Shown piece by piece: positions 14,087 to 45,417 of a stretch of DNA of 45,564 nt (position 1 is its first letter; the number at the start of each line of letters is the position of its first letter). Position numbers and translations under genes: made by a program. This DNA is from Candidatus Zhuqueibacterota bacterium (GTDB lineage Bacteria > BS750m-G25), in assembly GCA_016783505.1 (NCBI GenBank), contig JADHWK010000016.1:1-45564 (forward strand), read 5' to 3'. Below the pieces are notes generated by a model. That model did no database searches. It was not told the origin of the DNA and saw only the letters and a list, made by a program, of their open reading frames with translations.

Positions 14087-14097
14087 AGGGTAGGATT

Positions 14098-14334: not shown

Positions 14335-14525
14335 CCGATGTACCAAGTTATGATGACTAAGGGAAGTGCCCTTAATTGTCACCGGAGCTGGCGGGTTAAC
14401 TGGTCACGAAAGCTGGCCGCAGTTCATTGTTAATGCATTCATTTTAAGAATTCTCTGGAGCGTAGCCCCCTACGGGAAGGAAAGTGATATGTTTTCATTT
14501 CAAAATCACCGCTCAAAAATAAATT

Positions 14526-17210: not shown

Positions 17211-17335
17211 CCTAACATTTCAGCCACGAAGGCACCAAGACACAGGGGTAAATAAGAGACTTGAATAAGGTTGAACACTAAAAGGTTGTGGCTGATCGCT
17301 GATAGCTGAACGCTTCTTCCCAATGAGGAGGGAAT

Positions 17336-17497: not shown

Positions 17498-17578
17498 ATT
17501 TGACGAGGCGATGCAAAGGTTAGCTGATTAGGTCCCGATGAAGGAAATTCTGTTTTTAGATGTTGATTAGGCTAAAGA

Positions 17579-19116: not shown

Positions 19117-19280
19117 TTAAACTTTGGCAAATTTAAAATGCTGATTTCTAATCCCGAACCTTCGGGATGGGATTTGGAGCTTGTGATTTATAAAAATTGA
19201 TCATTGCGCTTAGTAAATAATAAAAGGCAGAAAATGATAAAGATGTTGGGCCAGCAGAAGCATAAGAGAAAGAAGGGATT

Positions 19281-19910: not shown

Positions 19911-20067
19911 GTGGGGACAATGGAAAATTGGATGGATAAATGGAATATTAAAATATGGGTCAGGCTTTGGTGAAATCAACTTCTATTCGGGGGGATATTC
20001 AGGCGTGAAAAAATGCGCTGTTTTGAAATAGTATCATTTGGTTCTATGAAAATTTTTGAGTGTGTCA

Positions 20068-20131
20068 ACCCCGTTAGATAATCATTTTGCAAGGTTAGGT
20101 ATGTTAGACAGTTGTCAGTATCTAACGGGGT
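20068..20131. repeat. 13-bp inverted repeat between rnfA and rnfB
   Basis: ACCCCGTTAGATA at 20068-20080 and its exact complement TATCTAACGGGGT at 20119-20131, with 38 bases between. No T-tract follows. It could be a small non-autonomous element or an RNA structure ahead of rnfB. Confidence 0.6.
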
Positions 20132-20203
20132 CAACCGTGTTGATACATAAAGCGAGATGGTCGCTTTACTCCAAATTATTCCCAAAAGTTTTTATTGACC
20201 GTT

Positions 20204-21232: not shown

Positions 21233-21285
21233 TTCTATCGGCCAGTGATTTTAATTGACTCTTTGGGTTCCTTTTCATATATTTT

Positions 21286-21777
21286 ATGGCATTATTGTTC
21301 TATTTATTCGCTCTGGTGGTCGCCTTTTCAGCGGTGATGGTGATTATCCGGAGGAATCCGGTCTCCAGCATCCTTTACCTGATGCTGGTCATGTTTTCCC
21401 TGGCTGGGCTTTATGTTCTGCTGGGAGCCCGCTTTATCGCCGCCCTGCAGGTGACGGTCTACGCCGGGGCCATCATGGTGCTCTTTTTGTTCGTGGTGAT
21501 GCTGCTGAACCTGGATAAGCCGGATGGTGTTGAGAGAAAACGGGCCGTAACCCGACTGATTGGGTTTTTAGTGGCCGGGCTGTTGTTGTTTTTGAGCGCT
21601 TTGTTGGTCAGGTCCAATTCCATTCAAAGCTCGGGAATGGACTTTAGACCGATGGGAACGGCCCAGGCGGTGGGGAAGACCCTGTTTACGGATTATTTAC
21701 TGCCCTTGGGAATAGTTCCCGTTTTGCTGCTTGCGGCTGTGCTGGGGGCGGTAGTACTGACGAATAAGAAATTATGA
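21286..21777 (+). CDS. nuoJ: NADH-quinone oxidoreductase subunit J
   Basis: Membrane subunit of respiratory complex I, 163 residues with five spans. The conserved third helix with its pi-bulge region reads QVTVYAGAIMVLFLFVVML, intact. N-terminal RRNPVSSILYLMLVMFSLAGLY is typical. First of a J-K-L-(M)-N block that follows rnfB. The rest of complex I (A-D, E-G, H, I) is not in the window. No ribosome site is visible before ATG 21286. Confidence 0.92.
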   Translation: MALLFYLFALVVAFSAVMVIIRRNPVSSILYLMLVMFSLAGLYVLLGARFIAALQVTVYAGAIMVLFLFVVMLLNLDKPDGVERKRAVTRLIGFLVAGLLLFLSALLVRSNSIQSSGMDFRPMGTAQAVGKTLFTDYLLPLGIVPVLLLAAVLGAVVLTNKKL

Positions 21778-21862
21778 GAATTATGAACCTTATTTCTAAA
21801 GCTGGGTTGTCGGATAGTAACGAATTTTCGGGATGCATCCGACCTACAGCAGAATTTGGGAA

Positions 21863-22168
21863 ATGCAGATTACGTTAGAACATTATCTGTTCTTGTCCGC
21901 TTTTCTTTTTGCCGTCGGGGTAGCCGGGGTGCTCACCCGGCGGAACGCCCTGATAATCTTTATGTCCATTGTGCTTATGCTGAATGGGGTGAATCTGACC
22001 TTCATCGCCCTGGCTCATTATCTTTCCGATATGGTCGGCCGGGTGTTCGTGGGCTTGGGGGTAACGGTGGCCGCCGCTGAGGTAGCGGTGGGGCTGGCTG
22101 TTGTGATCGCCATCTTCCGGAATAAGGGGACGGTTCATATTGATGTATTGAGCCTGACGAAATGGTAG
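21863..22168 (+). CDS. nuoK: NADH-quinone oxidoreductase subunit K with altered Glu36
   Basis: Start [16 protein letters not shown] at ATG 21863 matches NuoK; the upstream ATG 21833 adds ten spacer-derived residues. 101 residues, three spans. The second essential glutamate (E. coli Glu72) is present in [12 protein letters not shown] (residue 73). The first, Glu36 of E. coli, normally in MSIELMLN, is Val37 here (MSIVLMLN, codon GTG instead of GAG/GAA). Its stop overlaps the nuoL start by seven bases, so coupling is retained. Either proton transfer through NuoK is lost or the subunit works differently. Confidence 0.93.
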
Positions 22169-24000
22169 ACTATATTTGCTTAATCCTCCTCTTCCCCCTG
22201 ATCGGGGCCGGGGTTAACGGGCTTTTCGGGCATAAGCTTTCGGAAAAGACGGTGGGGATCATCGGTTGTTCGGCCATCGGGCTCTCCTTTCTGGTGGCTG
22301 GGGGAGTAATGATCCAGTTGGTGGGTCTGCCTCTAGCTGAGCGAAGGGCCGAAGTTACCCTATTCACCTGGCTTTTGGCCGGTGATTTTCGCATTCCGTT
22401 GGCTCTGTTGGTGGATCAGCTCTCCGGGGTGATGATCCTGGTGATAAGCGGGGTGGGTTTTCTGATCCATATCTATTCGCTGGGCTACATGCACGGGGAT
22501 CGGGGTTTTTCCCGCTACTTTGCCTGGATGAACCTGTCTGTCTTCTTCATGTTGCTGTTGGTGCTGGGAAATTCCTTTCCCATTTCGTTGGTGGGCTGGG
22601 AGGGGGTTGGTCTCTGCTCTTATCTTCTGATCGGCCTCTGGTATGAGGACCCGGCGAAGGCGGCGGCCGGGAAGAAGGCCTTCATCGTAGGCCGGATCGG
22701 TGACTGCGGGTTAATTATCGGTGTGCTGTTGATCTTCGCCACCTTCAAAACCCTGAATTATGTCGCGGTTTTTGAACTGGCAGGGTCATATCCAGGCAAC
22801 AGTGGGGTTATGATTGCCATTGCCTTGCTACTCTTCGTTGGGGCGGTTGGCAAATCGGCCCAGCTTCCCCTATACGTATGGCTGCCCGACGCCACTGCCG
22901 GCCCCCCACCGGTATTAGCCCTACTTACCACCACCACCATGGTCCCCGCTGGGGTATACATGGTGGCCCGGACCCATCCCCTTTATGAACTGGCCCCAGT
23001 TTCATTGACAGTCCTCTTGGTGGTAGGGGGCCTCACAGCAATTTATGCCGCCTCCATCGCCCTGGTCCAGAACGACATCAGGCGGGTGCTGGCCTATGCT
23101 ACCATCAGTCAACTGGGGTATATGTTTATGGCCTGCGGTGCCGGGGCCTATGCCGCCGGCATTTTCCATCTGACAACCTATGCTTTCTTCAATGCACTGC
23201 TATTTTTAGGGGTCGGGAGCATCATCCACGCCCTGGGAGGGGATGGGGACATCCGCCAGATGGGGGAGCTCAAGAAACATCTTCCTATTACCTTTTGGAC
23301 GTTTCTAGTAGCTGCGCTGGCCATCTCGGGTATCCCTGGGTTTTCGGGCTTCTTCAGCAAAGTTGAAATTCTATGGAAGTCCTTGAGCGGGGGCCATCCC
23401 TATGGCTGGGCGGTGGGGACAGTAGTTGCCGGCATGACCTCATTCTACATGTTCCGATTGCTCTATTTGACATTCTATGGCGATTTTCGGGGGAAAAAGA
23501 AAGCCCCAGAGCACATCCAAGAATCACCCCCCTCCATGGGAGTTCCCCTCATCCTATTGGGTGTCCTGTCCCTCTTCGGGGGATTGGGGGGGCTGCGCAA
23601 GCTGTTGGGCGGTGGGGATTGGTTGGGCCGTTTTTTAGCCCCGGTTTTCGAAAGCCCCGGGGTTCGTCACCGGGTCTATCATACCAGCGGCTTTGAATTC
23701 CTGATCATGGGGATTTTCGTGTTCGTAGTGCTGGTGGGTATTGCTCTGGCCTATTTGATGTATCGTAAAGCCCCCGAACTTCCCCAAAAGGCGGCCTCGA
23801 AATTCAGATTGGCCTATCATATTCTGTACAATAAATATTTTGTGGACGAAATCTACAATGTTGTCGTCGCTCAACCGGTGGTAAAGGGCTCCAATTGGCT
23901 ATTGCGCTGGGTTGACGATGGGGCCATTAACAAATCGGTAATGCTCATGGCCTCGGGGGTCGTCTTGATCCTCGGCTATTTTATTTTGCAAGTTCTTTAG
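22162..24000 (+). CDS. nuoL: NADH-quinone oxidoreductase subunit L with altered channel residues
   Basis: Antiporter-like membrane subunit of complex I, 612 residues, with the long C-terminal lateral helix. Conserved: E147 in [15 protein letters not shown]231 in [10 protein letters not shown]336 in FHLTTY, K400 in [11 protein letters not shown]. Changed relative to E. coli NuoL: His254 is Thr256 ([11 protein letters not shown] instead of LIHAATMVTAG), His338 is Tyr340 and the central Lys342 is Asn344 ([11 protein letters not shown] instead of THAFFKALLF). These belong to the central proton pathway. The frame is intact, so the gene is expressed-looking but probably not a canonical pump. Overlaps nuoK; nuoM after it is a remnant. 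Confidence 0.95.
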
Positions 24001-24009
24001 GAATAAATA

Positions 24010-24173
24010 GTGAACCTCACTATTCTCTCCTTTATCACCTTTTCATTGGGATAGTCCTCTGGATCGGGGTCTATCCGAAGCCCTTCTTAAGCCGGATGGA
24101 GGCCTCAGTGGGCTATCTGATCCAGCGGGTGGAGTTGGCTAGGGATGGGACACCTAATTCAGACAACCTGTGA
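24010..24173 (+). pseudogene. nuoM: nuoM remnant: N- and C-terminal stubs joined
   Basis: Where nuoM is expected there are only ~160 bases. GTG 24010 reads V-NLTILSFITFSLG and stops at TAG 24052, resembling a NuoM start. In another frame from 24051 the sequence reads IVLWIGVYPKPFLSRMEAS and VGYLIQRVELA to a TGA at 24171, which is the NuoM C-terminus (the 'WIGxYPxPFLxRMExSV' tail). About 460 codons between these are missing. This looks like a large internal deletion. Confidence 0.7.
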
Positions 24174-24260
24174 GTTATCTATCATTAACTATCCAAAAGA
24201 ATTTTAAAACCAAGGTTTTTAATCACATATTGATCAGGTTGTTGAAAGAGAGAGTATTGA

Positions 24261-24593
24261 ATGAAACTGCCGAAGCGGGAGAACGCCTACGTACCACCGG
24301 GAAAATTAGCTAGATATCTTCTTTCAGAAATGCATCCTGTTGGTAAGTCGAAGGCCAAATTCTTCCAATCGGTCGGTTTCTATGGGTCCAACGTGGATAT
24401 ACTTGAGAGAAGTTTGGTTATGATTGCACACTCTAACGAGGTCAGCGAGACAAAGAAGACCTCGCATGGCACGAAATATTTAGTTGATGGAGAGATTCAA
24501 ACACCAGACGGGATGCTCGTTCAGTTGAGAACTGTCTGGATTATAGATGCTGGAAAGGACACTCCCCGTTTCGTGACAGCATATCCAGCTTAG
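24261..24593 (+). CDS. DUF6883-like protein
   Basis: 110 residues with the pattern of DUF6883: PKRENAYVPPGKLARYLLSEMHP cut short here to KLARYLLSEMHP, then GKSKAKFFQSVGF, HGTKYLVDGEIQTPDGM and RTVWIIDAGKDTPRFVTAYP. The invariant SKA-x-FF, G-x-KY and VWI..TAYP are present. Followed 22 bases later by a DUF4926 gene; this pair recurs widely in bacteria and behaves like a toxin-antitoxin-type couple, though no biochemistry is implied here. It lies exactly between two nuoM C-terminal remnants, so it was inserted into, or replaced, a nuoM region. Confidence 0.8.
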   Translation: MKLPKRENAYVPPGKLARYLLSEMHPVGKSKAKFFQSVGFYGSNVDILERSLVMIAHSNEVSETKKTSHGTKYLVDGEIQTPDGMLVQLRTVWIIDAGKDTPRFVTAYPA

Positions 24594-24615
24594 ATAATAA
24601 GGGAGGAGCTTTTAG

Positions 24616-24852
24616 ATGATTCGAGAATTGGACTCTGTTGCTTTGGCCTGTGACATTGCAGAGCATGGCCTGAAACAGGGCGATATAGGAGCAGTGGTTC
24701 ACTGCTACGGTGATGGATTGGCTTTTGAAGTTGAATTTGTGACCGCAGCGGGCAAGACAATTACTGTATTGACACTTAGCAGGGATGAAATCCGCCCTTT
24801 GGGGGGGAGAGAAATTCTTCATGCTCGGGAACTGGAACAGACTTTGGCATAA
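24616..24852 (+). CDS. DUF4926-like protein
   Basis: 78 residues: IRELDSVALACDIAEHGLKQGDIGAVVHCYGDGLAFEVEF in part, that is HGLKQGDIGAVVH then AFEVEFV and VLTLSRDEIRPL. This is the small beta-barrel DUF4926 family, with the GD-x-GxVV turn and VEF strand intact. A GGGAGGAG ribosome site precedes ATG 24616. It pairs with the DUF6883 gene. Confidence 0.82.
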   Translation: MIRELDSVALACDIAEHGLKQGDIGAVVHCYGDGLAFEVEFVTAAGKTITVLTLSRDEIRPLGGREILHARELEQTLA

Positions 24853-24929
24853 ACAGCTGAAGAGTCAGTGAAAAACGGTTGAGCTTAAACAAATGTCTAA
24901 ATTTAACTGCGGTAAAAATTTGTTCTCTT

Positions 24930-25059
24930 AGTGAACATCTAGATCAGTGTCTAGCCGAAGCCCTTCTTAAGCCGAATGGAGGTTTCTGTGGACCACATGA
25001 TCAAGAGGCTGGAATTGGCCAGGGATGAGGGATTAAATTTCTGTATCGGAAATTGCTGA
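24930..25059 (+). pseudogene. nuoM: Second nuoM C-terminal remnant
   Basis: Reads SV-stop-PKPFLSRMEVSV then DHMIKRLELARDE to a TGA at 25057-25059. It is clearly homologous to the C-terminal part of the remnant at 24051-24173 (the stretch CCGAAGCCCTTCTTAAGCCG is identical), but with many differences further on, including TAT to TAG in the 'GVYPKP' motif. It therefore comes from a diverged second nuoM copy, or an old duplication, rather than a recent target-site duplication. Confidence 0.7.
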
Positions 25060-25104
25060 TTATTGTTAGAAGGGCGCAAAACAAAAATCTTCCAAAGGGA
25101 ATCC

Positions 25105-26550
25105 TTGATATCCAGTCCTGAAATAAATATAAGTTCCATCGGGCCGGAGCTGACTGTTTTGCTGACGGCCATCGTCATCCTGGTGGTTGATCGGTGGGTG
25201 GCGAAAAGGAAACCATGGTTGCCATTGGGGCTGGGACTGGCCGGGTTGGCCCTGGCCCTGGGGGTCACGTTGTCGTTATGGAATCAATCCCGGGCTGGGT
25301 TCGGGGGGCTGATCGCCGCCGATAACTATGCTCTGTTTTTTAACCTTATTTTTCTCATTGCTGCCGCCATGACCTTTCTGGTCTCAAGATTTTATCTGGA
25401 CCAGAACGGGATGCAGCGGGGTAAATATTATGTTTTGTTGCTCTTTGCCCTGCTGGGGATGATGGTAACAGCGTCAGGCACGGACCTGTTGACCATTTTC
25501 CTGGGCCTGGAAACCTCGGCCGTTTCCCTCTATGCCCTGGCTGGCTTTCTGCGGGGACGGGTAAAATCCAATGAATCGGCCCTGAAATATATTCTGCTGG
25601 GGGCCTTTTCTACCGGATTTTTTCTGTATGGGGTGGCGCTGGTTTACGGGGGCACGGGGACTACCAATCTGGGGAGAATTGCTGACCACTTAGCCAAGAC
25701 CGACCTTTTATCATCCTCAATAATGCTGGCGGGGATGGGGCTGTTGATAGTGGGGTTCGGCTTTAAGGTGGCGGCGGTGCCCTTTCATTTCTGGGCCCCC
25801 GATGTCTACGAAGGGGCCCCAACCCCGATAGCCGCCTTCATCTCGGTGGGTCCAAAGGCAGCGGCTTTCGCCGCATTCCTGCGGGTATTCAGCACGGCTC
25901 TGCCGGCCCTGAAGCCCCAATGGACCCCGGTGCTCTACGTATTAGCCATCCTGACTATGACCCTGGGGAACCTGGCGGCCCTATCCCAGTGGAACATCAA
26001 ACGGATGCTGGCCTATTCCTGTATCGCCCATGCAGGGTATGTGCTGGTGGCGTTGGTGGCCGGTGAGGAGTTAGGAAATGCCAGTGTCCTCTTCTATCTG
26101 TTCGTCTACAGCCTGATGAACCTGGGGGTCTTCACCATCGCCATCTTGATCAATCGAAGGGGGAAAGGGAATTACCATCTGAACGACTACGCCGGGCTGG
26201 GCACCAGCCATCCCCTCCTGGGGGCGGTCATGGCGCTGTTTATGCTATCGTTAGCGGGAATTCCCCCCACGGCCGGGTTCTTCGGTAAATTCTATATCTT
26301 CGCTGCCGCGGTTAAATCGGACTATATCTGGTTGGCGGCGATCGGAATTCTGAACTGGTTGGTTTCCGTCTATTATTATCTGCGAATCGTCGTCACTATG
26401 TATATGATAAAGCCGGAGATCGCCTTGAAAAGGGTCAGGGTAGTACCGGAATTTGTGGTGGTCCTTCTGGTTTCGGCCCTGGGGATCCTGGGGCTGGGCC
26501 TCTTTCCGTCCGGACTGATGTTCTTGGTGAAAAGCGCGGTGATTTTTTGA
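25105..26550 (+). CDS. nuoN: NADH-quinone oxidoreductase subunit N
   Basis: Antiporter-like complex I subunit, ~481 residues, 14 spans. TTG 25105 is preferred because AAAGGGA lies just upstream; TTG 25063 is also in frame. Key residues are retained: Glu in GLETSAVSLYAL, Lys in GFKVAAVPFHFW, the PDVYEGAPTPIAAF loop, Lys in VGPKAAAFAAF and Lys in TAGFFGKFYIF. NIKRMLAYSCIAHAGY is standard. NuoN thus looks fully functional, in contrast to NuoK and NuoL upstream. Confidence 0.94.
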   Translation: MISSPEINISSIGPELTVLLTAIVILVVDRWVAKRKPWLPLGLGLAGLALALGVTLSLWNQSRAGFGGLIAADNYALFFNLIFLIAAAMTFLVSRFYLDQNGMQRGKYYVLLLFALLGMMVTASGTDLLTIFLGLETSAVSLYALAGFLRGRVKSNESALKYILLGAFSTGFFLYGVALVYGGTGTTNLGRIADHLAKTDLLSSSIMLAGMGLLIVGFGFKVAAVPFHFWAPDVYEGAPTPIAAFISVGPKAAAFAAFLRVFSTALPALKPQWTPVLYVLAILTMTLGNLAALSQWNIKRMLAYSCIAHAGYVLVALVAGEELGNASVLFYLFVYSLMNLGVFTIAILINRRGKGNYHLNDYAGLGTSHPLLGAVMALFMLSLAGIPPTAGFFGKFYIFAAAVKSDYIWLAAIGILNWLVSVYYYLRIVVTMYMIKPEIALKRVRVVPEFVVVLLVSALGILGLGLFPSGLMFLVKSAVIF

Positions 26551-26621
26551 AGCCAAGCGGACAATGATGGTCCTACCGGATAAAACCCCCAGCTTCATCT
26601 TTCGGGGATGGTGAACAGGAC

Positions 26622-27785
26622 ATGCTTCTTTTGCATTTAGCCCTTATCGTCATTCTGAGCAAACTGGTCTCGGCCCTGGCGGCAAAATATAAGCAGCCCC
26701 CTGTTCTGGGGATGCTGTTGCTGGGGCTATTGCTGGGGCCCTCGGGATTTCACTTTATTGACTCGGAGATTGTATTAAAAAGCCTCGCCAAACTCGGAGT
26801 CCTGATCCTCATCTTCATGGTGGGTCTGGAGACAGATTTTGGGGGGATGAGGAGGCAGGGAAGGGCCTCCTTTTTGGCCGCCTTGGGGGGCGTTATCTTC
26901 CCCTTTGGGCTGGGAATTGGAACTGCTTTGTTCTTCAACTATGGATTGCTCGAGGGTTTCGTCATCGGAACTATCCTGACGGCAACCAGCGTGAGCGTCA
27001 CCGCTATGACCCTTATAGATTTGGGAAAGCTCAAGACGGCGGAGGGAACCACAATCCTCGGGGCGGCGATTCTCGATGATATCTTTGGGATCTTATTAAT
27101 TTCCATTATACTTTCCCTTGGGGGCGGTCAGACGAACATATGGGCCGTATTGGGGAAAATCATTCTGTTCTTTTTCATCACTACGGGGATCGGGATTTTT
27201 GCTTTTCCAAAATTGATGCGCTTCTCAGAGAGGCTCCATGTGCCCCACGGGGCGGTCGCCATTGCCCTGGGTCTGGCTTTCTTATATGCCTGGATCGCAG
27301 AACTCGGGAGGATTGCCTATATCACCGGGGCCTATCTTGCCGGGCTCTTTTTGGGAAGAACCACTACCCAGCGTCGTATTATCGCCGGGATGGAAACCCT
27401 GGGACAATCCCTTTTCACAGCTATCTTCTTTGTAAATATCGGGCTGGAAACCGAGCTAAAGGGCTTGAGTGAAAGCTATCTTTTTGTCCTTATCTTTGTC
27501 TTAGCCGCCATATTGGGGAAGGTGATCGGAAGCGGAATCGGAAGCTGGACCTCCGGGTTCAACCGGGCCCAATCCCTCCGGGTGGGCATCGGGATGATGC
27601 CCAGGGGCGAGGTGGCCCTGGTGGTTGCCTCCGTCGGTCTGTCAAATCAACTGATCGGACAGGTCGAGTATTCCGGAACCGTGGTGATGGCCATCCTGAC
27701 GGCTCTGCTGACCCCATTCCTCCTGAAGCTGGCTTTTGGTAAAAAGGAAATTCAGGATAATCCACCGGGGGAACTGCACGCCTAA
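26622..27785 (+). CDS. CPA2-family Na+/H+ antiporter
   Basis: 387 residues with 12-13 membrane segments. It starts KLVSALAAKYKQPPVLGMLL with GLLLGPSG, the cation:proton antiporter 2 N-terminus. The ion-binding pair is D152-D153 in AAILDDIFGI, the double-Asp motif of electrogenic NapA-like exchangers; KefB/C-type K+ channels have Gln-Asp. The unwound helices TATSVSVTAMTL and MMPRGEVALVVAS are conserved. The regulatory RCK/TrkA-N tail is absent. It precedes EIIA and PII-like genes. Likely exchanges Na+ for H+, linking the sodium and proton gradients. Confidence 0.85.
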   Translation: MLLLHLALIVILSKLVSALAAKYKQPPVLGMLLLGLLLGPSGFHFIDSEIVLKSLAKLGVLILIFMVGLETDFGGMRRQGRASFLAALGGVIFPFGLGIGTALFFNYGLLEGFVIGTILTATSVSVTAMTLIDLGKLKTAEGTTILGAAILDDIFGILLISIILSLGGGQTNIWAVLGKIILFFFITTGIGIFAFPKLMRFSERLHVPHGAVAIALGLAFLYAWIAELGRIAYITGAYLAGLFLGRTTTQRRIIAGMETLGQSLFTAIFFVNIGLETELKGLSESYLFVLIFVLAAILGKVIGSGIGSWTSGFNRAQSLRVGIGMMPRGEVALVVASVGLSNQLIGQVEYSGTVVMAILTALLTPFLLKLAFGKKEIQDNPPGELHA

Positions 27786-28989: not shown

Positions 28990-30117
28990 ATGAAAAGACT
29001 ACGCACCTTTTTTAATGGAATTTATAAGCAGGCCAAAGAGAAGCCGGTCCTGCGTACCCTGATGCCCCTGATCCGGATGATGGACAACTTCATCTTCGAG
29101 TCCGGGGGGGTGGTGACTGATGCTCCCCTGATCCGTGATGGGATCGGCACGCAGCGGTTTATGTCCATGGTGATTGTGGCGATTGCCCCGGCCACCATCG
29201 CTTCGGTCTATTTCTTCGGCTGGCGTTCGCTGTCCGTGATTGCGGTCTCCTATATTTTTGGCGGGATAACCGAGATTATCTTCGCCATCGTCAGAAAGGA
29301 ATCTATCAACGAGGGGCTGCTGGTAACCGGGATACTCTTTCCCTTAACCCTGCCCCCAACTATCCCCCTTTGGATGGTGGCCGTGGGGGTTGTGGTTGGT
29401 GTGGCCCTGGGGAAGGAGGTGTTCGGGGGCACTGGGAAGAATATCTTCAACCCGGCGCTGGTGGGGAGGGTTTTCCTGGCCATCGCCTTTCCGGTGGAGA
29501 TGACTACCAAATGGACAGCACCTGTGGGCGGTTTCTGGGGTGGTTTTACAACTTATCTTCCCGATGCGGTCACCTCAGCTACACCCCTGACCATTTTCAA
29601 ATCAACCGGCCAGCTCACCACCAATCTGGATTTGCTGTGGGGCAATGTGGCCGGGAGCCTGGGGGAAACCTCCGCCCTCCTGCTCATATTGGGGGGCCTG
29701 TTCCTGATGCTGACTAAGGTGAGCAACTGGCGCATACCGGTGGGCTATCTGGGCTCGGCCTTTGCCTTCGGATGGGTTATGTGGCTGCTGGTTCCCCAAA
29801 AGTTTGCCCCCCCAGTATTTCAACTGCTATCCGGAGGGCTGCTTTTCGGAACCTTCTTCATGGCCACCGACCCGGTCTCGGCCCCCATAACGAACCTGGG
29901 AAGGTGGATATATGCCCTTTTGCTCGGTATCATTACCATCATTATTCGGGGGTTGAGCGGATATGTGGAGGGGGTGATGTTTGCCATTTTATTCATGAAC
30001 ATCTTTTCATCCTTAATCAATGACATGACCGTTCCCCTCATTGCCAGGCGCAGGGAGCGGAGGGTTAAAGCCTCACTGAGTGCACGTCTTGGGAGTCCCA
30101 AAAATCTAACGAAATAA
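28990..30117 (+). CDS. nqrB: NQR-type subunit B (flavinylated membrane subunit)
   Basis: 375 residues, a paralogue of the RnfD at 16176. It is longer at the N-terminus: ~50 residues including KPVLRTLMPLIRMMDNFIFES and RDGIGTQRFMSMV, which corresponds to the NqrB extension ahead of 'RDxxDxKRxM'. The ApbE-type site is D-A-V-T-S-A-T (fits Dxx[ST][SG]AT) near residue 197. FGGTGKNIFNPALVGR and FFMATDPVSAPITN are conserved. First gene of an NQR-like set B-C-D-E-A-F. The basic C-terminal tail (RRRERRVK) is cytoplasmic. Confidence 0.88.
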   Translation: MKRLRTFFNGIYKQAKEKPVLRTLMPLIRMMDNFIFESGGVVTDAPLIRDGIGTQRFMSMVIVAIAPATIASVYFFGWRSLSVIAVSYIFGGITEIIFAIVRKESINEGLLVTGILFPLTLPPTIPLWMVAVGVVVGVALGKEVFGGTGKNIFNPALVGRVFLAIAFPVEMTTKWTAPVGGFWGGFTTYLPDAVTSATPLTIFKSTGQLTTNLDLLWGNVAGSLGETSALLLILGGLFLMLTKVSNWRIPVGYLGSAFAFGWVMWLLVPQKFAPPVFQLLSGGLLFGTFFMATDPVSAPITNLGRWIYALLLGIITIIIRGLSGYVEGVMFAILFMNIFSSLINDMTVPLIARRRERRVKASLSARLGSPKNLTK

Positions 30118-30130
30118 TGTTCTAAACAAG

Positions 30131-30268
30131 TATATCAGGTGATCAGGACATCAGTGGGAAGAATATTAGAAAATCAGGAGAACAGTATAGGATAGATGAG
30201 TTAAATGTTGCACGGAGAAAATAATCTGGTGTTCTGGTAACCTAATCCTCTTCCAACTGATTTACTGA
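30131..30268. repeat. Dispersed repeat family B, copy 3
   Basis: TATATCAGGTGATCAGGACATCAGTGGGAAG at the start matches copies 1 and 2; the right part (AATCTGGTGTTCTGGTAACC) is more diverged. Confidence 0.6.
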
Positions 30269-30280
30269 TCAGTCCGGCGT

Positions 30281-30520
30281 CAGTCGGGCGGGCCTATTGC
30301 AGAACTACCGCATCGGTCAGGCGCCCGACTGATAGGAATAAATTCCTATGCTAATCCAAATAAAGTATGTTGAAACATACTGTAATCAGTCCCGAAGTTT
30401 CGGGGCTTTCTTTGAAATAGCGTGATAATTTATTATCACGCAAATAGGAAACCAGTCCCAAGATCTTTACGACGATTTCAGAGTTGTGCCACAGGCCCGG
30501 GCGCCTGACCGACCTGACGG
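30281..30520. repeat. MITE-like repeat with divergent interior (family A)
   Basis: The ends match the other copies: CAGTCGGGCGGGCCTATTGC on the left and GTTGTGCCACAGGCCCGGGC..CCTGACGG on the right. The inside is different and includes a second inverted terminus (CGCCCGACTG at 30322-30331, exact complement of CAGTCGGGCG), suggesting a nested or rearranged element. Confidence 0.65.
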
Positions 30521-30591
30521 ATATTCTTATTTACTTTAATATCAGTAAAGGCCTAATGAAGAAAATGCGGCACTAAGTTCAGGAGGAACCC

Positions 30592-31203
30592 ATGACCAAA
30601 AAACTTAAGCAGAGATTGTGGATGATCGGTCTAATGGCCATAATGGGTGTTATTTCAGCTTCGCTTTTAGCCAGCATCTACCAGTATGCTCAACCCATCG
30701 TGGAACGGAACCGAAGGATTAAGCTCTATTCGGCGGTGCTGACCGTGTTGAGGGTTGATTATTCAATGCCGGATATGGAAGTAGTTTTTCAGGATAGGAT
30801 AAAAATTATCGAACAGGAGGGGCTGACCCTTTATGAAGGATATTCTGATAAGGGACGACTTTTAGGCTATGCCCTGCCCCTCAAGGGTGGGGGGTTCTGG
30901 GGGCCCATTGCCACGGTCCTCGGCCTTGAGCCCGACTGGGAGACCCTCAAAGGGATCGAGATTATTGAAAATGTGGAGACGCCGGGACTGGGTGCCCGGA
31001 TCACCGAACCGGCTTTTAAAGCCTCTTTTAGGGGGCTGAAGGCCACCCCCAACATCACTTATGTGCTGCATAAGGAGCCGGAAAGACCCAATGAATTTCA
31101 GGCCATAACCGGGGCCACAGAGACAAGTAAATCTATTGCCAGGATCTTTAACAAGGGGATCAGACAATATCGTGGAGTTTTTGAAATATCCCTTGCGCAA
31201 TGA
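30592..31203 (+). CDS. nqrC: NQR-type subunit C (covalent-FMN subunit)
   Basis: 203 residues. One N-terminal span (MIGLMAIMGVISASLLASIY) and a soluble FMN-binding domain. NQR-type features: GGGFWGPIATVLGLEPD..TLKGIEIIE and VETPGLGARI; flavinylation site A-I-T-G-A-T-E-T-S near residue 178. The residue three before the motif is Gln rather than Asp. AGGAGG precedes ATG 30592. More like NqrC than the RnfG at 17579 because of the 'GxGFWGPI' segment. Confidence 0.88.
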   Translation: MTKKLKQRLWMIGLMAIMGVISASLLASIYQYAQPIVERNRRIKLYSAVLTVLRVDYSMPDMEVVFQDRIKIIEQEGLTLYEGYSDKGRLLGYALPLKGGGFWGPIATVLGLEPDWETLKGIEIIENVETPGLGARITEPAFKASFRGLKATPNITYVLHKEPERPNEFQAITGATETSKSIARIFNKGIRQYRGVFEISLAQ

Positions 31204-31334
31204 AAATTGAAAAGTGTCTCGAACATTCGGGGGAAAATGCAAAATAGTGAAGAACAAATAACTTTGCATTTTGATATTTTCATTTTTCAATCAAGCTTAT
31301 GCGTGCCGGTGCATATCATTTGGATAAAATAATT

Positions 31335-31504
31335 ATGGCAGAAAAATTAATCGTTGAAGGATTCAAACAATTTGGAGGAAAGCATTGCCAGACGACGTCA
31401 CTGAAGAATGTATCTCTTTACTAGACAATTTGAAACAGAAGATTATTGAATGTTATGAGATAGAAGAACGAGCATTTCAGATATTAAGTAATACTGTAAA
31501 ATGA
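31335..31504 (+). pseudogene. BtrH-like gene reduced to terminal stubs
   Basis: ATG 31335 reads MAEKLIVEGFKQFGGKHCQT then TSLKNVSLY and a TAG at 31422: the start of BtrH N-terminal-type proteins (VEGFxxFGGKHCxTxxLxN, with the catalytic-type Cys). Immediately after, in another frame, NLKQKIIECYEIEERAFQIL runs to a TGA at 31502, matching a family C-terminal helix. About 90% of the gene between them is gone. It lies in the nqrC-nqrD gap. Confidence 0.6.
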
Positions 31505-31608
31505 AGTGGCAAAACAAGCCCAATAACAGATCAACTACGCCATTCCGATTATTAAAAATCCAATAGGAAAATGTATTATTTGGGCAAGGTGAATAGAAAG
31601 GAGATGCT

Positions 31609-32280
31609 ATGGCTGAAACTGGTATCCAAGTTCAAGCAATACCGATGGTGAAGCCCGGGTTGTCGCTCTGGCATAAGGTCAAAAAGAGCCGAAGTTACAC
31701 CGACTTAGTCAGGGGGCTGTGGGCGGATAACCCCACCTACCGCATGGTGCTGGGCATGTGTCCCACCCTGGCGGTGACCAATACCGCGGTGAACAGCGTG
31801 GCCATGGGTCTGGCCACCATGTCGGTTACCATCTTTAGCTCGGTCGCCATATCCATCATTCGCCGCATCATTCCCCGGCGGGTGCGTTTGGCGGTCTTTA
31901 TGATCATTATCGCCACCCTGGTCACCTTCGTGGATCTGTTTTTCAAAGCCGTCCTGCCGGACATCAGCGAAGCCCTGGGTGCCTATGTGGGGCTGATTAT
32001 CACCAATTGCATCATTCTGGGGCGGGCTGAGGCCTTTGCCTCGATCAACAAACCCTGGTACTCTTTCTTAGACGCCCTGGGAGTGGGACTGGGATTCACC
32101 GCTTCGCTTACCATTCTGGGCATGGTGCGGGAATTCTTAGGATTTGGCACCATCTTCTACCAGGAGGTCGCTGGCGCCGGTTGGACCGATTGGGCGATTA
32201 TGATCATGCCCCCGGGCGCCTTCTTAACCCTTGGGGTATTATATGGAATATTTAACAGCATCTCAAAACCTAAAGAATAG
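31609..32280 (+). CDS. nqrD: NQR/RNF-type subunit D
   Basis: 223 residues, six spans, homologous to RnfE/NqrD. The intramembrane cluster cysteines are present in LGMCPTLAVTN and ITNCIILGRAEAFAS. A ~35-residue N-terminal extension (to SYTDLVRGLW) is longer than in the RnfE at 18487. GAAAGGAG precedes ATG 31609. Nine bases separate it from nqrE, the closest spacing among the membrane genes of both sets. Confidence 0.92.
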   Translation: MAETGIQVQAIPMVKPGLSLWHKVKKSRSYTDLVRGLWADNPTYRMVLGMCPTLAVTNTAVNSVAMGLATMSVTIFSSVAISIIRRIIPRRVRLAVFMIIIATLVTFVDLFFKAVLPDISEALGAYVGLIITNCIILGRAEAFASINKPWYSFLDALGVGLGFTASLTILGMVREFLGFGTIFYQEVAGAGWTDWAIMIMPPGAFLTLGVLYGIFNSISKPKE

Positions 32281-32289
32281 GAGTAGATA

Positions 32290-32871
32290 ATGGAAGCTTT
32301 TCTTATCATCATTGCCTCGATCTTTACCGCCAATATTGCCCTGTCCAATTTTCTAGGGATGTGCCCCTTCATCGCCATCTCCAAGGACTATCACTCAGCC
32401 ATCGGGATGGGTATGGCGGTCACCTTTGTCCTCACCATTACGGCAACCGCAAACTGGATTATTGACTATTATGTCTTGGTGCCACTGGGGGTGGGATATT
32501 TGCGCTTTGTCATCTTCATTATCGTGATCGCTGCCATGGTGCAGATCGTGGAGATGTTTATGGAACGGTTCTCCCCCACCCTGTACAATGCCCTGGGTAT
32601 TTTCCTGCCGCTAATCACCGTCAACTGTGCCATTTTGGGGGTTTCGCTATTTATGATTTTGCGTGAATATACCTTTATCAAGGCGGTGGCCTTCGGTTTC
32701 GGGGGAGGGGTGGGCTGGAGCTTGGCCATTATCGCTATGGCCAGTATTCGCAATCGGCTGCAATTTTCCAATGTCCCCCGTCAACTTCAGGGAGCCGGCA
32801 TTACTATGATCATCGCCGGAATGATGGCCCTGGGGTTTATGGGCTTTGCCGGTATGGTGCCTATTCAATAA
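32290..32871 (+). CDS. nqrE: NQR/RNF-type subunit E
   Basis: 193 residues, six spans, homologous to RnfA/NqrE. Cysteines in LGMCPFIAISK and TVNCAILGVSL match the intramembrane iron-sulfur ligands. IALSNFLG at the start and MALGFMGFAGM at the end are family features. AGGAGTAG ribosome site. Followed by an intruding AT-rich gene rather than by nqrF. Confidence 0.92.
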   Translation: MEAFLIIIASIFTANIALSNFLGMCPFIAISKDYHSAIGMGMAVTFVLTITATANWIIDYYVLVPLGVGYLRFVIFIIVIAAMVQIVEMFMERFSPTLYNALGIFLPLITVNCAILGVSLFMILREYTFIKAVAFGFGGGVGWSLAIIAMASIRNRLQFSNVPRQLQGAGITMIIAGMMALGFMGFAGMVPIQ

Positions 32872-32905
32872 TTGCAGAGGAAACAGGGATGATTATAAAC
32901 AGTTG

Positions 32906-32926
32906 CTTCAAGGTTGCACCTTGAAG
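32906..32926. repeat. Palindrome left of the inserted HEPN-like gene
   Basis: CTTCAAGGT-TGC-ACCTTGAAG, nine-base perfect arms. A sister palindrome with the same core (TTCAAGGT/ACCTTGAA) lies on the other side of the gene at 33526-33548. Confidence 0.75.
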
Positions 32927-32972
32927 TATTACAAAAAAGTTCAGGTTACACTATGGGTAGGTTTTAATAAAA

Positions 32973-33494
32973 ATGGCTGAATTTAAAGACAGACTTTATA
33001 TGGCCCTTGGTCGACTTACCGTCAATTACTCTTTACTTGAGGAGAATTTTATACTTTTGATTACCGCCCTGCTTGGTGTAGACTTTAAGATTGGAGACAT
33101 CATTACATGCAAACAGTCGTTTTCTGGCCTACTTAAACTATCAGACGCCCTCTTTAGGCAAAAGATAGATGACCAAGAGTTACTTGAACAGTTAAGGCTT
33201 GTGATAAACCAGGCAAGTAAATGCGCCGAACGACGGAATTCATTAATTCACTCAATGTGGTACTTTGCTGATCCTGAAATTGGAACGGTGCAGATTAAGA
33301 AGAAGGTAAAGATCGGCAAAGGATTTCAGGACACCTTCGACCCTGCTGATGTTGATGATATCAATGATCTAGTAAAATCAATAGAAGAGACAGTACTCGC
33401 TGTAACTGGGCTGCTTATTGAAACCGAACGAAAAGGGTTCATTCGCTTCTTTGATATACCATTTCAGGAAGACAAGACGCAAAATAAAACCTAA
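32973..33494 (+). CDS. HEPN-like small protein inserted in the nqr operon
   Basis: 173 residues, all-helical appearance. RLTVNYSLLEENFILLIT and ERRNSLIHSMW are visible; R88-N-S-L-I-H93 fits the Rx4H motif of HEPN RNases. No partner gene (nucleotidyltransferase or antitoxin) is adjacent. GC content is lower than nqrE and nqrA on either side, and near-identical palindromes flank it, both pointing to insertion. It could be a lone HEPN toxin or a structural homologue without RNase activity; the family is not otherwise recognised. Confidence 0.5.
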   Translation: MAEFKDRLYMALGRLTVNYSLLEENFILLITALLGVDFKIGDIITCKQSFSGLLKLSDALFRQKIDDQELLEQLRLVINQASKCAERRNSLIHSMWYFADPEIGTVQIKKKVKIGKGFQDTFDPADVDDINDLVKSIEETVLAVTGLLIETERKGFIRFFDIPFQEDKTQNKT

Positions 33495-33525
33495 CCTATC
33501 ACTTTTAACTTTAAGGTAAATAATT

Positions 33526-33548
33526 CTTTCAAGGTTCAACCTTGAAAG
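33526..33548. repeat. Palindrome right of the inserted HEPN-like gene
   Basis: CTTTCAAGGTT-C-AACCTTGAAAG, eleven-base perfect arms, sharing its core with the palindrome at 32906-32926. There is no T-tract, so it is not a classic terminator. Confidence 0.75.
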
Positions 33549-33631
33549 AACAAATGTTATGGAATTTTCACAAGATTCTCGTAAGATAAATTTATATTGC
33601 TATTTAACTAGTTTAAAAAACAGGAAGGATT

Positions 33632-35080
33632 ATGGAGCAACTGAAGATCAAGAAATCATTTCGGGGGGGGATGAAGCTCCCGAAGTTTAAGGGAATTCCT
33701 GATGCAAACATCACCGACTATTTCAGCTTGCCAGCGCTGGTGGTTATCCCTTTGAGGCGGGGGACCGGAGCGGTCAATGAGCCATTAGTTCAGGTGGGCG
33801 ATGAGGTCAGGACGGGGCAGGTCATCGCCTGCAATAACGGGGAGGTGGCCACTCCGGTTCATGCCAGCATCAGCGGCAAGGTAGTGGCTATTGAGAAGAG
33901 ACTCCATCCGACCCAAAAGCCCACCCTGTCGGTGGTGATTGAGGGGGACGGCAGGGATGAGTGGATGAAAACGGCCGAAGAAAAAAGGGCGTGGGAGGAC
34001 CGCACTTCTGAGGAAATCGGTAAAGTGCTCTATGAAGCCGGGGTTACCGGGGGGGGCAAGGGGGGGTTCCCCACCGCTTACCGTTCATCTGAAGTTCCGC
34101 CCGAACAGATTCATACCCTGGTCATCAACGCTATCGAGACCGACCCCTATCTGGTGGCCAACCAACAAATCGTTCTTGATAAGCAGGATGAGTTTTTGCA
34201 GGGCATACGGATTCTTCGCAGGGCCCTGGGGGATGTGGTGGTGCTTTTGGGCGTTGATGTGAAAGACCAGGGATTGGGTAAGCCGCTTTCCGAAAATGCT
34301 AAGGATTGGCCCTGGCTGACCCTCTGTCCACTTCGGGCAAAGTATCCCCAGGGTGAGGAGGAGATTCTTCTCGGCACTTTGTTGAATATTAATCTGCCCG
34401 GCGGTAAAACCCCCGTTGATGCCGGGGTGGTGGTTCAGGATGCGGCCCAAGTGCTGGCGGCCTATGAAGCAGTAGCGCTGGGCAAGCCATTTATTGAAAG
34501 GACGATATCCGTCGGCGGAGATGGGGTAAATTCCCCAAGGAATTTGAAGGTTAGGGTGGGAACGCCCATCCGAGCTATCGCCGATGAATTGGCCCCCAAC
34601 ATCCCCCTGCGGGTAGCCATGAACGGTCTCCTCAAGGGAGTGTATGTGAAGAATTTAGAATCACCCGTCCTGCGGGAGACCGCCGGGCTGACCCTTCTGA
34701 CCGCGTATGATGATCGAACACCTTTCTATTTTGTGAGGATGGGGTTAAATACGTTTTCCTATACCCGTTCGTTTATTTCCCTCCTCCCGGAAAAACCTGT
34801 CGAGCCCAGGCTGCGCGGGGAGGAGCGCGCCTGCCTTAGTTGCGGTTACTGTATTGACGTCTGTCCGGTGGGGCTGGTGCCCACCTACCTGGCCCGATAT
34901 GCTGAAAAAAAGATGTGGGATGAGGCTCAGGAACTGGACATCCTGGCGTGTATTGACTGCAATCTGTGCAGCTATGTGTGCCCGTGTAAGATTTCCCTGG
35001 CGGAACAGATAAAAAAGGGGAAGAGAAGAGTCGCCAAGAAGTTGGCAAAAGAGGAGGCTGCTCAAGCGGCTGTTAGCTAA
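33632..35080 (+). CDS. RnfC-like subunit in the NqrA position, with two 4Fe-4S motifs
   Basis: 482 residues. Overall fold as RnfC/NqrA: KSFRGGMKLPKFKG start, a lipoyl-like VATPVHASISGKV, and a central Rossmann-like domain. The C-terminal part has CLSCGYCIDVCP (~400) and CIDCNLCSYVCP (~440), the ferredoxin-type motifs of RnfC; known NqrA proteins lack them. The middle is NqrA-leaning: the RnfC loop GMGGAAFPTHVK is GGGKGGFPTAYR and RnfC's NGAECEPYL is NAIETDPYL. It therefore combines RnfC clusters with NqrA-like substitutions, inside a set that ends with NqrF. A basic, Ala-rich tail closes the protein. GGAAGG lies before ATG 33632. Confidence 0.88.
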   Translation: MEQLKIKKSFRGGMKLPKFKGIPDANITDYFSLPALVVIPLRRGTGAVNEPLVQVGDEVRTGQVIACNNGEVATPVHASISGKVVAIEKRLHPTQKPTLSVVIEGDGRDEWMKTAEEKRAWEDRTSEEIGKVLYEAGVTGGGKGGFPTAYRSSEVPPEQIHTLVINAIETDPYLVANQQIVLDKQDEFLQGIRILRRALGDVVVLLGVDVKDQGLGKPLSENAKDWPWLTLCPLRAKYPQGEEEILLGTLLNINLPGGKTPVDAGVVVQDAAQVLAAYEAVALGKPFIERTISVGGDGVNSPRNLKVRVGTPIRAIADELAPNIPLRVAMNGLLKGVYVKNLESPVLRETAGLTLLTAYDDRTPFYFVRMGLNTFSYTRSFISLLPEKPVEPRLRGEERACLSCGYCIDVCPVGLVPTYLARYAEKKMWDEAQELDILACIDCNLCSYVCPCKISLAEQIKKGKRRVAKKLAKEEAAQAAVS

Positions 35081-35109
35081 ACAGTAAAGAGCACATTGGG
35101 AAATCCGAT

Positions 35110-35353
35110 CAGTCCGGCGTCAGTTAGGCGGGTCTGTGGCACAACTTAAAGATCCTTTATTTTCCGTTTGAAGATCTTGCCTGCTCAACAAGGGCCAAAA
35201 CCTATCCCGAAGCATCGGGATAAGGTTCTGGTTAAGGCCATCTTTAACAACTATTTAACCAGAACCGCTCTTTAGAGCGGTTCTAAACATAACCCCTAAA
35301 TTATCAATTGCGATAGTTGTGCCACAGGCCCAGGCGCCTGACTGACCTGACGG
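35110..35353. repeat. MITE-like repeat, full copy (family A)
   Basis: Left end CCGGCGTCAGTTAGGCGGGT..GTGGCACAAC and right end GTTGTGCCACAGGCCCAGGC..CCTGACGG are inverted over ~27-35 bases. The interior keeps GGTTCTGGTTAA, TTTAACCAGAACC and GAACCGCTCT-TT-AGAGCGGTTC, as in the copy at 13384-13626. Confidence 0.8.
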
Positions 35354-35409
35354 AAGCACGATCCCGAAACTTCGGGACAAAATACAAAGCAACAATAAAA
35401 ACAGCGACA

Positions 35410-35462
35410 GGAGTTACCCCGGAGCTTCGCGGTTTATGATAAACCGCTGAAGCGGTAACTCC
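35410..35462. repeat. Multi-stem hairpin repeat (family C, copy 1)
   Basis: GGAGTTACC pairs with GGTAACTCC, GCTTC with GAAGC and GCGGTTTAT with ATAAACCGC around a single-base loop. A weaker relative lies at 41719-41770 before atpC. Confidence 0.7.
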
Positions 35463-35761
35463 AAATTTCACTGAAAAGATTTGGAACAGGAATCAACGGA
35501 ACTTACGAATATTTGTGGCTCTCTCGCTCCCGGTGGATGTCGCCTGCCCGCCATCCCGAAGCTTCGGGATAGTGGTGAGTCATCCGCCGGAAATCCTGTG
35601 GTATCAATATAATAGTCGAGGATGACAATATCCTCGACGAGCATGGATGGTGTCATTATAATGATTACTTTTTAAAATGGTTTAGGGTTTAGTATTTTCA
35701 ACGTTAGCAATTTTTACCAAAATTTAGTTAGGATAATATGGTAATTTAAGGAGATATTACC

Positions 35762-36844
35762 ATGGGACCGATAGTTACGCCAATAGTCGTTTTGAGCTCC
35801 GTTGGGGCTGGTCTGGCCATTATCTTGGTTCTGGCGGAGAAGTATTTAGCCAGTTATGGGGAATGTCGCATCAAGGTGAAGGGAGAGAAGGAGATCGTGG
35901 TGGAGGGCGGGGGCACCCTGCAGGCGAGCTTGACGGATAACGGGGTTTTTGTCCCTTCCGCCTGCGGGGGAAAGGGAACCTGTGGAACCTGCAAGGTTCA
36001 GATATTCAATAAAGGCGCCGGTGAGCCCCTGGCCACTGAGATTCCCTATCTCTCCAAGGAAGACCTGGAAAACGGTTTTCGCCTCTCCTGTCTGGTGAAG
36101 GTGAAAAATGATCTGGAAGTTTCTGTCCCCAAGATCCATGAGTTCAGGACTATCGTTACAAAGATCGAGGACCTCACCCACGACATAAAGTCCATTATCT
36201 TTGAGTTGCAGGATGGCGAGACCATTGATTTCAAGCCGGGGCAGTATGTGATGATGCGCATGCCGGGCACCGAGGAGGAGCCGGTGATGCGGGCATATTC
36301 CATTGCTTCAAAGCCCTCGGACAACCATGTCGTCGAGCTCCTCATCCGATTGGTACCCGGGGGATTGATGACCACTTATGTCTTTACCGAGTTAAAAGTG
36401 GGGGACGAAGTCTACCTCTCCGGACCATACGGAGAATTTTACCTGCGGGATTCCGACAAAGATATCATCTGCGTTGGCGGGGGCTCCGGGGTGGCACCCA
36501 TCAAGTCCATCATTACCCATCTCTTCGAAAAGGACACCGACAGGAAAGTAACCTATTATTTTGGGGCCCGGGCGGTGAAGGATCTTTATTTCTACAAAGA
36601 ATGTCTTGAGTTGAAGGAGAAATATCCGAACTTCAGATTTATTACCGCCCTCTCTGATTTGGATGAAGGCGACCAATGGGACGGGGACACCGGGTTTATC
36701 CATCTGGTGATAGACAAATATTTAGAGGATGGGGAAGACATGGAGAGCTACATGTGCGGCCCGCCGCCGATGATTGATGCCGCCATTGATATGCTGGTGG
36801 AAAAGGACATGGATGAAGATGATATTTATTTTGACAAGTTCTGA
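35762..36844 (+). CDS. nqrF: NQR subunit F: NADH dehydrogenase with 2Fe-2S and FAD
   Basis: 360 residues. One N-terminal span (IVVLSSVGAGLAIILVLAEKY), then a plant-type [2Fe-2S] domain with C68, C74, C77 (ACGGKGTCGTC) and C110 (RLSC). The FAD site R177-A-Y-S-I-A-S and NAD loop GGGSGVAP (239-246) follow, with MCGPPPMIDAA near the C-terminus. All NqrF landmarks are present, about 45 residues shorter than Vibrio NqrF. It oxidises NADH and feeds the NQR membrane subunits. AAGGAG ribosome site before ATG 35762. It closes the B-C-D-E-A-F set; there is no nqrM (DUF539) in the window. Confidence 0.95.
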   Translation: MGPIVTPIVVLSSVGAGLAIILVLAEKYLASYGECRIKVKGEKEIVVEGGGTLQASLTDNGVFVPSACGGKGTCGTCKVQIFNKGAGEPLATEIPYLSKEDLENGFRLSCLVKVKNDLEVSVPKIHEFRTIVTKIEDLTHDIKSIIFELQDGETIDFKPGQYVMMRMPGTEEEPVMRAYSIASKPSDNHVVELLIRLVPGGLMTTYVFTELKVGDEVYLSGPYGEFYLRDSDKDIICVGGGSGVAPIKSIITHLFEKDTDRKVTYYFGARAVKDLYFYKECLELKEKYPNFRFITALSDLDEGDQWDGDTGFIHLVIDKYLEDGEDMESYMCGPPPMIDAAIDMLVEKDMDEDDIYFDKF

Positions 36845-41865: not shown

Positions 41866-42876
41866 TTGGATGAAGACATAGTGGACGACGGACGCTATAC
41901 TTACGCAGTAGCCCGCATCAGAGCCCTGGAGACCAAGCTCTTCGATCGGCCGCAGATTGAGAGGCTGTTGGCAGAGGACTCCCAGGGAATGCTCCGACTT
42001 TTGAAGGAATCGGACTACGCCGAATCCTTCAGTGAGGTGGGGGACCCCCACGATTTTGAACCGGCTTTAACCAGGGAGCTGGATAAGGTTCTTTCTCTGC
42101 TGACGAAGCTCTCCCCAGACAGAGAGCTGATAGATCTCTTCCGTTTGAGATATGATTACCATAATTTGAAGATTTTGCTGAAGGCTAAATATCTTGATGA
42201 GAGCGGCGATGGTGCCCTGATGGACCTGGGTATGTCGGGGCTTGCGTCTTTAAAATCCATGGTTCAGGAGGGCAAATATCTGGGTTTGATTGAACCATTA
42301 AAGGAGTGCTTCCCCGGGGCTGTGGCCGCTTACGAGAGGGAAAGCGATCCCCGGGAGATCAATCTGGCCGTTGATCGGGCGATGTGGGAGCATTTTTTAA
42401 GAATAGCGGATAAATATCACTGTGCTTTTTTGAAAGGCTTATTCCAATGTACCATCGACCTGATCAACATTAAGATTCTCCTGAGAATCAAAGGGTTTGA
42501 GTCTGAAAAGAAAGTGCTAGAAAGGAACCTGATCCCTGGTGGGATATTAGAAAAGGGTTTTTTCCTCCAAAGCTATGATGAGCCCTGGGATGCCTTCCTC
42601 ACCCAGATGGCCGTAACGCCCTATGAATATATCCTAACTGAGGGGTTGAAATCCTGGCCGGAGGATAAGTCCTTTACGCAATTTGAAATCGCCTGTGATC
42701 GTTATATCTTCCGTTATCTTGAGAAGGCAAAATACGTCGTCTTCGGGATAGAACCGCTGATCGCCTATCTCGTTTACAAAGAAAACGAGATCAAATTGAT
42801 TCGAACCATGATGGTGGGTAAGCTCAACGGCATAGACCGGGAGACCCTGGAAGCAAGGTTGAGGGTGCCATATTAG
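41866..42876 (+). CDS. atpC: V-type ATPase subunit C (central-stalk cap, d-type)
   Basis: About 336 residues. Two starts are possible: TTG 41866 or GTG 41881, the latter giving M-DDGRYTYAVARIRALETKLF, closer to family starts. RYxYAxARxRxxExxLL, a helical bundle of three repeats, and EIKLIRTMMVGKLNG near the end ('ExxnIRxIxxGK') are family features. It couples the K ring to the central rotor. The last ~16 codons are duplicated at 45269 along with downstream DNA. Confidence 0.92.
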   Translation: MDEDIVDDGRYTYAVARIRALETKLFDRPQIERLLAEDSQGMLRLLKESDYAESFSEVGDPHDFEPALTRELDKVLSLLTKLSPDRELIDLFRLRYDYHNLKILLKAKYLDESGDGALMDLGMSGLASLKSMVQEGKYLGLIEPLKECFPGAVAAYERESDPREINLAVDRAMWEHFLRIADKYHCAFLKGLFQCTIDLINIKILLRIKGFESEKKVLERNLIPGGILEKGFFLQSYDEPWDAFLTQMAVTPYEYILTEGLKSWPEDKSFTQFEIACDRYIFRYLEKAKYVVFGIEPLIAYLVYKENEIKLIRTMMVGKLNGIDRETLEARLRVPY

Positions 42877-42982
42877 CTGTTGTTAGGTATATACTTAAGA
42901 TATGAATCCATGTACTTAAAATTTATAAGGTTAACCATAAGATTCGATTGTCAATACTTATACACATGCTGGTGAATAATAT
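42830..42982. repeat. Direct repeat 1: atpC 3' end and downstream DNA
   Basis: The segment from GCATAGACCGGGAGACCCTG through the atpC stop to GGTGAATAATAT recurs at 45269-45417 in the same orientation, with about 10% differences. The two copies bracket a 2.3-kb block holding the 597-residue gene, an attC-like site and the truncated atpF. Confidence 0.85.
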
Positions 42983-45268: not shown

Positions 45269-45417
45269 GCATAGATCGGGGAACCCTGGAAGCAAGGTTG
45301 ATGGTGCCATATTAGCTGTTGTTAGATACTTAATATATGAATCCATGTACTTAAAATTTATAAGCTTAACCATAAGATTCAATTGTTAATACTTATATAC
45401 GTGCTGGTGAATAATAT
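45269..45417. repeat. Direct repeat 2: copy of atpC 3' end
   Basis: GCATAGATCGGGGAACCCTG..GAAGCAAGGTTGATGGTGCC-ATATTAG reproduces the last codons of atpC and ~100 bases of its downstream spacer (see 42830-42982). It is out of context here, with no atpC body before it. Confidence 0.85.

Follow-up and report, generated by a model that had tools for sequence, protein, structure and literature searches.

A probable Na+-pumping NADH:quinone oxidoreductase from the RNF–NQR stem whose A subunit keeps two [4Fe-4S] motifs

The window analysed here, a stretch of 45,564 nucleotides of Candidatus Zhuqueibacterota DNA, contains a gene set that probably encodes a Na+-pumping NADH:quinone oxidoreductase from the stem lineage leading from RNF to NQR, with an A subunit predicted to carry two [4Fe-4S] clusters. 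NQR is thought to be derived from RNF in changes that comprised a duplication, the loss of both RnfB and the RnfC cofactors, and the gain of NqrF, and NqrA is described as cofactor-free in both a review (PMC12174285) and a structural paper (PMC11889175). That the window set represents a surviving stem lineage between the two complexes is well supported by the trees described below. The literature searched contained no description of such a set, nor of an RNF–NQR intermediate. The window set and its complete-set relatives come from metagenome-assembled genomes and are known from sequence.

Gene set, cofactor sites and genomic context

The genes are located at 28990–36844 in the order B-C-D-E-(173-aa ORF)-A-F, which includes an NqrF-type NADH subunit; rnfB is absent from the set (Table 1). 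The coordinates agree with the order B-C-D-E-A-F given in the first-pass annotation, in which the ORF between E and A was not mentioned. This ORF has a GC content of 0.40, compared with 0.49–0.55 in the subunit genes, and lacks a counterpart between E and F in the Omnitrophota locus L044 and within the L073 set; it is probably an insertion rather than a subunit. The operon spacers are long. Two of them contain parts of a dispersed repeat, which is about 245 nt in length with 80% identity (13383–13627 and 35120–35345, with ends at 30267–30306 and 30482–30521).

Table 1. Coordinates of the subunit genes and sequence features of the NQR-like set (positions in the window)
Feature	Position	Strand	Evidence
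Subunit B, 375 aa, NqrB/RnfD type	28990..30117	+	PF03116; NqrB side of B tree, 100/97
B N-terminal extension, NqrB-type, 41 residues	28990..29112	+	Extension lengths in NqrB, window type and RnfD
B quinone-loop residues G91-G92, N107-E108	29260..29325	+	Alignment with 7xk3_B; family alignment
Subunit C, 203 aa, NqrC/RnfG type, ITGAT flavinylation motif	30592..31203	+	PF04205
Subunit D, 223 aa, NqrD/RnfE type, both 2Fe-2S cysteines	31609..32280	+	PF02508, trees
Subunit E, 193 aa, NqrE/RnfA type, both 2Fe-2S cysteines	32290..32871	+	PF02508, trees
173-aa ORF between E and A	32973..33494	+	No Pfam match; low GC
Subunit A, 482 aa, RnfC/NqrA intermediate, cluster-bearing	33632..35080	+	Domains, models, trees
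A insert, approximate, ~33 residues	34721..34819	+	In all NqrA, in no RnfC sampled
A first [4Fe-4S] motif CLSCGYCIDVCP	34832..34867	+	Motif search, alignment
A second [4Fe-4S] motif CIDCNLCSYVCP	34949..34984	+	Motif search, alignment
Subunit F, 360 aa, short NqrF: 2Fe-2S, FAD, NADH	35762..36844	+	Domains; nqrF model; F tree

Subunit A matches the RnfC_N, Complex1_51K and 4Fe-4S dicluster models of Pfam. Its NCBIfam scores are 322 for the rnfC subfamily (cut-off 246) and 95.8 for nqrA (cut-off 321), and B, D and E likewise reach the rnf subfamily cut-offs. The two [4Fe-4S] motifs noticed earlier at about 400 and 440 were recovered, CxxCxxCxxxCP beginning at residues 401 and 440. None of the eight cluster cysteines varies among ten divergent cluster-bearing A proteins of low overall identity, and all are also intact in the A proteins of G297, G299 and G347. 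Since the distances between these cysteines are the same throughout the related A proteins, the motifs do not occur by chance, and invariance despite low identity speaks for a functional pair of clusters. The statement that known NqrA proteins lack both motifs held for 22 of the 24 sampled; the remaining two keep the second motif alone, so that the pair is not a common feature of NqrA. These two, L074 (8804–10297) and L075, are true NqrA proteins of one family, and their single motif suggests a later step in cluster loss.

The stretch that precedes the Fe-S domain measures 17–20 residues in 28/28 RnfC proteins, 52–55 in the ten cluster-bearing A proteins and 54–58 in 24 NqrA proteins. At the FMN/NAD site of the window A, the second Gly of GxGGA is replaced by Lys and the Cys of ECEP by Thr, and IExNK is lost. 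These two residues, the Glu and Lys of IExNK and the Lys after FPTHV are invariant in 28/28 RnfC proteins; across the cluster-bearing A proteins, including that of the window, the RnfC invariants are mostly lost, and the site is degraded further in L035, L044 and L073. We considered A as a second NADH site and rejected this possibility because residues invariant in RnfC are broken, and two NADH entry points, as proposed in the first-pass annotation, are hence not borne out. An AlphaFold model of A, built from a shallow alignment (9 rows), is good for about residues 20–355 and of low quality in the Fe-S domain; it is closer to RnfC (Z 36–39) than to NqrA (Z 26–29). By these measures, A is neither an ordinary RnfC nor an NqrA.

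An NqrB-type N-terminal extension had been claimed for B, and indeed 41 residues precede its conserved start, compared with 42–64 in NqrB and mostly 7 in RnfD. The quinone-loop residues of B align with G140-G141 and N156-E157 of Vibrio cholerae NqrB (7xk3_B), for which quinone and inhibitor site contacts have been reported (PMC10643135, PMC9325719). Equivalents of G141 and N156-E157 are kept in B and absent from RnfD in the family alignment. The NqrB quinone contacts F159 and F160 are both Leu in B, which counts against our main reading. The FAD, 2Fe-2S, FMN and riboflavin residues that were checked are all present in F, D/E, C and B. Subunit F contains the Fer2, FAD_binding_6 and NAD_binding_1 domains, as expected from its earlier description as an NqrF with 2Fe-2S and FAD, and scores 286.7 bits with the nqrF model, just below the cut-off of 295. 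In the F tree, whose very long outgroup branches make it informative solely on this point, the short F falls outside the canonical NqrF clade (100/100).

The source genome (2.5 Mb, 60% complete) encodes a MenA-like prenyltransferase scoring over the cut-off and complete sdhCDAB genes. In L044, menA follows directly after nqrF, and a polyprenyl synthase gene is likewise located behind nqrF. Together, these genes favour a quinone as acceptor. Neither MenD nor MqnA turned up in the 60%-complete genome, and we gave no weight to these negatives; the NqrM model matched no control genome and hence says nothing on this one.

A complete canonical RNF set, CDGEAB with its own RnfB, is located upstream at 14526–21232, as annotated before, and its RnfB is the single one found in the 60%-complete genome. 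The RNF genes are followed by those for NuoJ, NuoK, NuoL and NuoN (complex I type) and a CPA2 antiporter; NuoM was not seen among the complex I-type genes of this stretch (14526–27785), which lies upstream of the NQR-like set and of V-type ATPase genes. Between NuoL and NuoN, a DUF6883 gene is flanked by a 90-nt direct repeat (81%; 24058–24147 and 24938–25027). Another direct repeat of about 150 nt (92–93% identical) occurs at 42830–42982 and 45269–45417, 2.4 kb apart.

Phylogenetic position and relatives

NqrA could not be aligned with RnfC for trees in the earlier study (PMC4014512). In our A tree, RnfC (100/100) and NqrA (100/100) form separate clades with the ten cluster-bearing A proteins on the stem between them, and the window A is the one nearest to RnfC. 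A quick A tree calculated after removal of both the insert and the Fe-S domain again united RnfC in one group (SH-aLRT 100) and left the window A outside. In the B tree, the window type is positioned on the stem between RnfD (100/100) and NqrB (100/100), on the NqrB side and outside the crown NqrB. For D and E, trees of the paralogues rooted on each other showed NQR and the window type nested within RNF in both halves, the window type being outside the canonical NqrD (100/99) and NqrE (100/98) clades. As ancient paralogues that root each other, D and E provide a direction besides a position, from RNF via the window type to NQR. The concatenated A+B+D+E tree gave the series RNF, L042, window, L035+L044, L073, NQR, in which the NQR branches are long and the placement of L073 is unsure. 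The first-pass annotation had proposed either a living intermediate or a hybrid enzyme. The common stem position of the RnfC/NqrA, RnfD/NqrB and RnfA/NqrE relatives, the D/E rooting and the NqrA insert in A give good support to the intermediate.

The window-type proteins might instead form one clade, a separate sister family of NQR with no graded series, in which case the retained clusters would be less telling as to which step came first. The AU test did not reject a single clade for all ten cluster-bearing A proteins (p = 0.066), and the exact order of the ladder is therefore unsure. On the other hand, the branches starred in the D and E trees force at least two groups and the concatenated tree is a ladder. 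We regard the sister family as possible, though clearly the less probable reading, and retain the stem lineage.

Our survey covered 290 genomes spread over the bacteria, among which the source genome is the sole member of its phylum. Besides the source genome, a cluster-bearing A was seen only in G085 and G144, and NqrA scored over the cut-off in 25 genomes. In the phylum of G144, such an A occurs in 4/64 genomes, three of them from one family. A scan of named genomes revealed relatives in Omnitrophota, Bipolaricaulota/Acetothermia and Fraserbacteria. Complete sets of A-B-C-D-E-F with both motifs are present in L044 and in G144, and G299 has most of the set and both motifs. As the set is also present in several further lineages, we reject a one-off hybrid.

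Several loci contain parts of the set in other surroundings. In the Bipolaricaulota/Fraserbacteria loci L038 (8497–14460) and L039–L043, genes for a cluster-bearing A and a B are flanked by those for Rieske and cytochrome b6 proteins on one side and by that for a petD-like, 2Fe-2S domain-containing protein on the other, and C, D and E are mostly missing. By gene content, these loci combine a b6f-like complex with an A-B pair of RNF/NQR type. At the F position of L035 in G085 (11215–14771), a 2Fe-2S/NuoE-like fusion precedes two further proteins, one NuoF-like and one of 2Fe-2S/4Fe-4S type, in place of the FAD domain of NqrF. Plasmid pILYOP01 of Ilyobacter polytropus, a cultured Fusobacteriota species, carries a stem-type B-C-D-E-F with no adjoining A gene (L131, 6105–9960), the B of which has no N-terminal extension. 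In G347 (L144, 6020–8687), a cluster-bearing A and a B are present, with no match to C, D, E or F within the flanking 6 kb.

Proposed electron route and alternative readings

In the enzyme that we propose, NADH would reduce FAD and then the 2Fe-2S cluster in F, from which electrons would pass to the 2Fe-2S cluster between D and E, the FMN of C and finally the FMN and riboflavin of B. The final acceptor would be a quinone, probably menaquinone, bound in the NqrB-type pocket of B, and Na+ would be exported. Catalysis, Na+ coupling and the quinone acceptor are inferred for the window set, as are the binding and function of the clusters. Subunit A would be a descendant of RnfC that gained the NqrA-type insert and mostly lost its FMN/NAD site, the two [4Fe-4S] clusters having been retained by selection. 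They may be structural, may hold electrons near the riboflavin or may form a second outlet. In RNF, riboflavin reduces an RnfC cluster at a distance of 11.7 Å (PMC9588780). The clusters of A would be placed where RnfC receives the riboflavin electrons and may hold them or pass them on.

This distance is also among the points in favour of the clusters as the real outlet. In that case, NADH electrons from F, D/E, C and B would reach the [4Fe-4S] pair, which would hand them to a non-NAD acceptor, either soluble or docked, and reduction of quinone would be secondary or absent. The invariant eight cysteines in ten divergent A proteins, intact in three more, are in line with such an outlet, and the A-B pairs without C-D-E beside b6f-like genes imply that A-B can serve as an electron wire. 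Against it stand the NqrB extension and quinone-loop residues of B, menA behind nqrF in L044, the degraded FMN/NAD site of A and the lack of a candidate acceptor gene adjoining A in the window. We consider this outlet unlikely. Less likely still is a pump with two outlets, in which NADH electrons reach both the quinone in B and, via the [4Fe-4S] pair of A, a second acceptor. Such a pump would couple Na+ transport to the splitting or merging of electron flows, which is known for neither RNF nor NQR.

A mosaic, that is, an NQR operon in which nqrA was swapped for rnfC by recombination, would fit the rnf names given to A, B, D and E by curated models and the score of F near the nqrF cut-off; with A, B, D and E sharing one stem position, these congruent trees largely refute it, and as the NqrA insert is present in A and further lineages have this set as well, we judge it very improbable. 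Although the genome is 60% complete and a canonical RNF lies upstream, a second ordinary RNF with its rnfB elsewhere is hardly credible, given that A falls outside the 100/100 RnfC clade, that nqrF is present here and in the complete sets elsewhere, and that one RnfB was found in the genome.

According to the 2014 proposal, the clusters of RnfC disappeared as a consequence of RnfB loss, and NqrF was recruited afterwards (PMC4014512). The stem-type sets suggest a different order, in which the clusters were still present in A when NqrF, the NqrB-type quinone loop and the insert of NqrA were acquired. Stem-type sets therefore show a possible order of the steps that turned RNF into NQR, and the function of the cofactor-free NqrA becomes testable now that a relative with cofactor motifs is available.

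Comparison with known systems

The window set resembles the Na+-NQR (NqrABCDEF) of the Vibrio cholerae type in its six subunits, NqrF input, NqrB N-terminal extension and quinone loop, A insert and identical 2Fe-2S, FMN and riboflavin sites. It differs in that A keeps two [4Fe-4S] motifs whereas NqrA has no redox cofactors, F is 360 aa long instead of about 405, and the sequences branch outside crown NQR and score below the NCBIfam nqr cut-offs. With RNF (RnfCDGEAB) it shares the RnfC fold and both RnfC cluster motifs of A, and A, B, D and E reach rnf cut-offs; unlike RNF, it has NqrF and the NqrA insert and no RnfB, the FMN/NAD residues of A are degraded, and A and B do not fall within crown RnfC or crown RnfD. 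NqrB/RnfD relatives also occur in Nqr/Rnf-like complexes with two subunits; these consist of an NqrB/RnfD-like protein and an FMN protein with a fused NAD domain, and have no A, D, E or F (PMC11334425).
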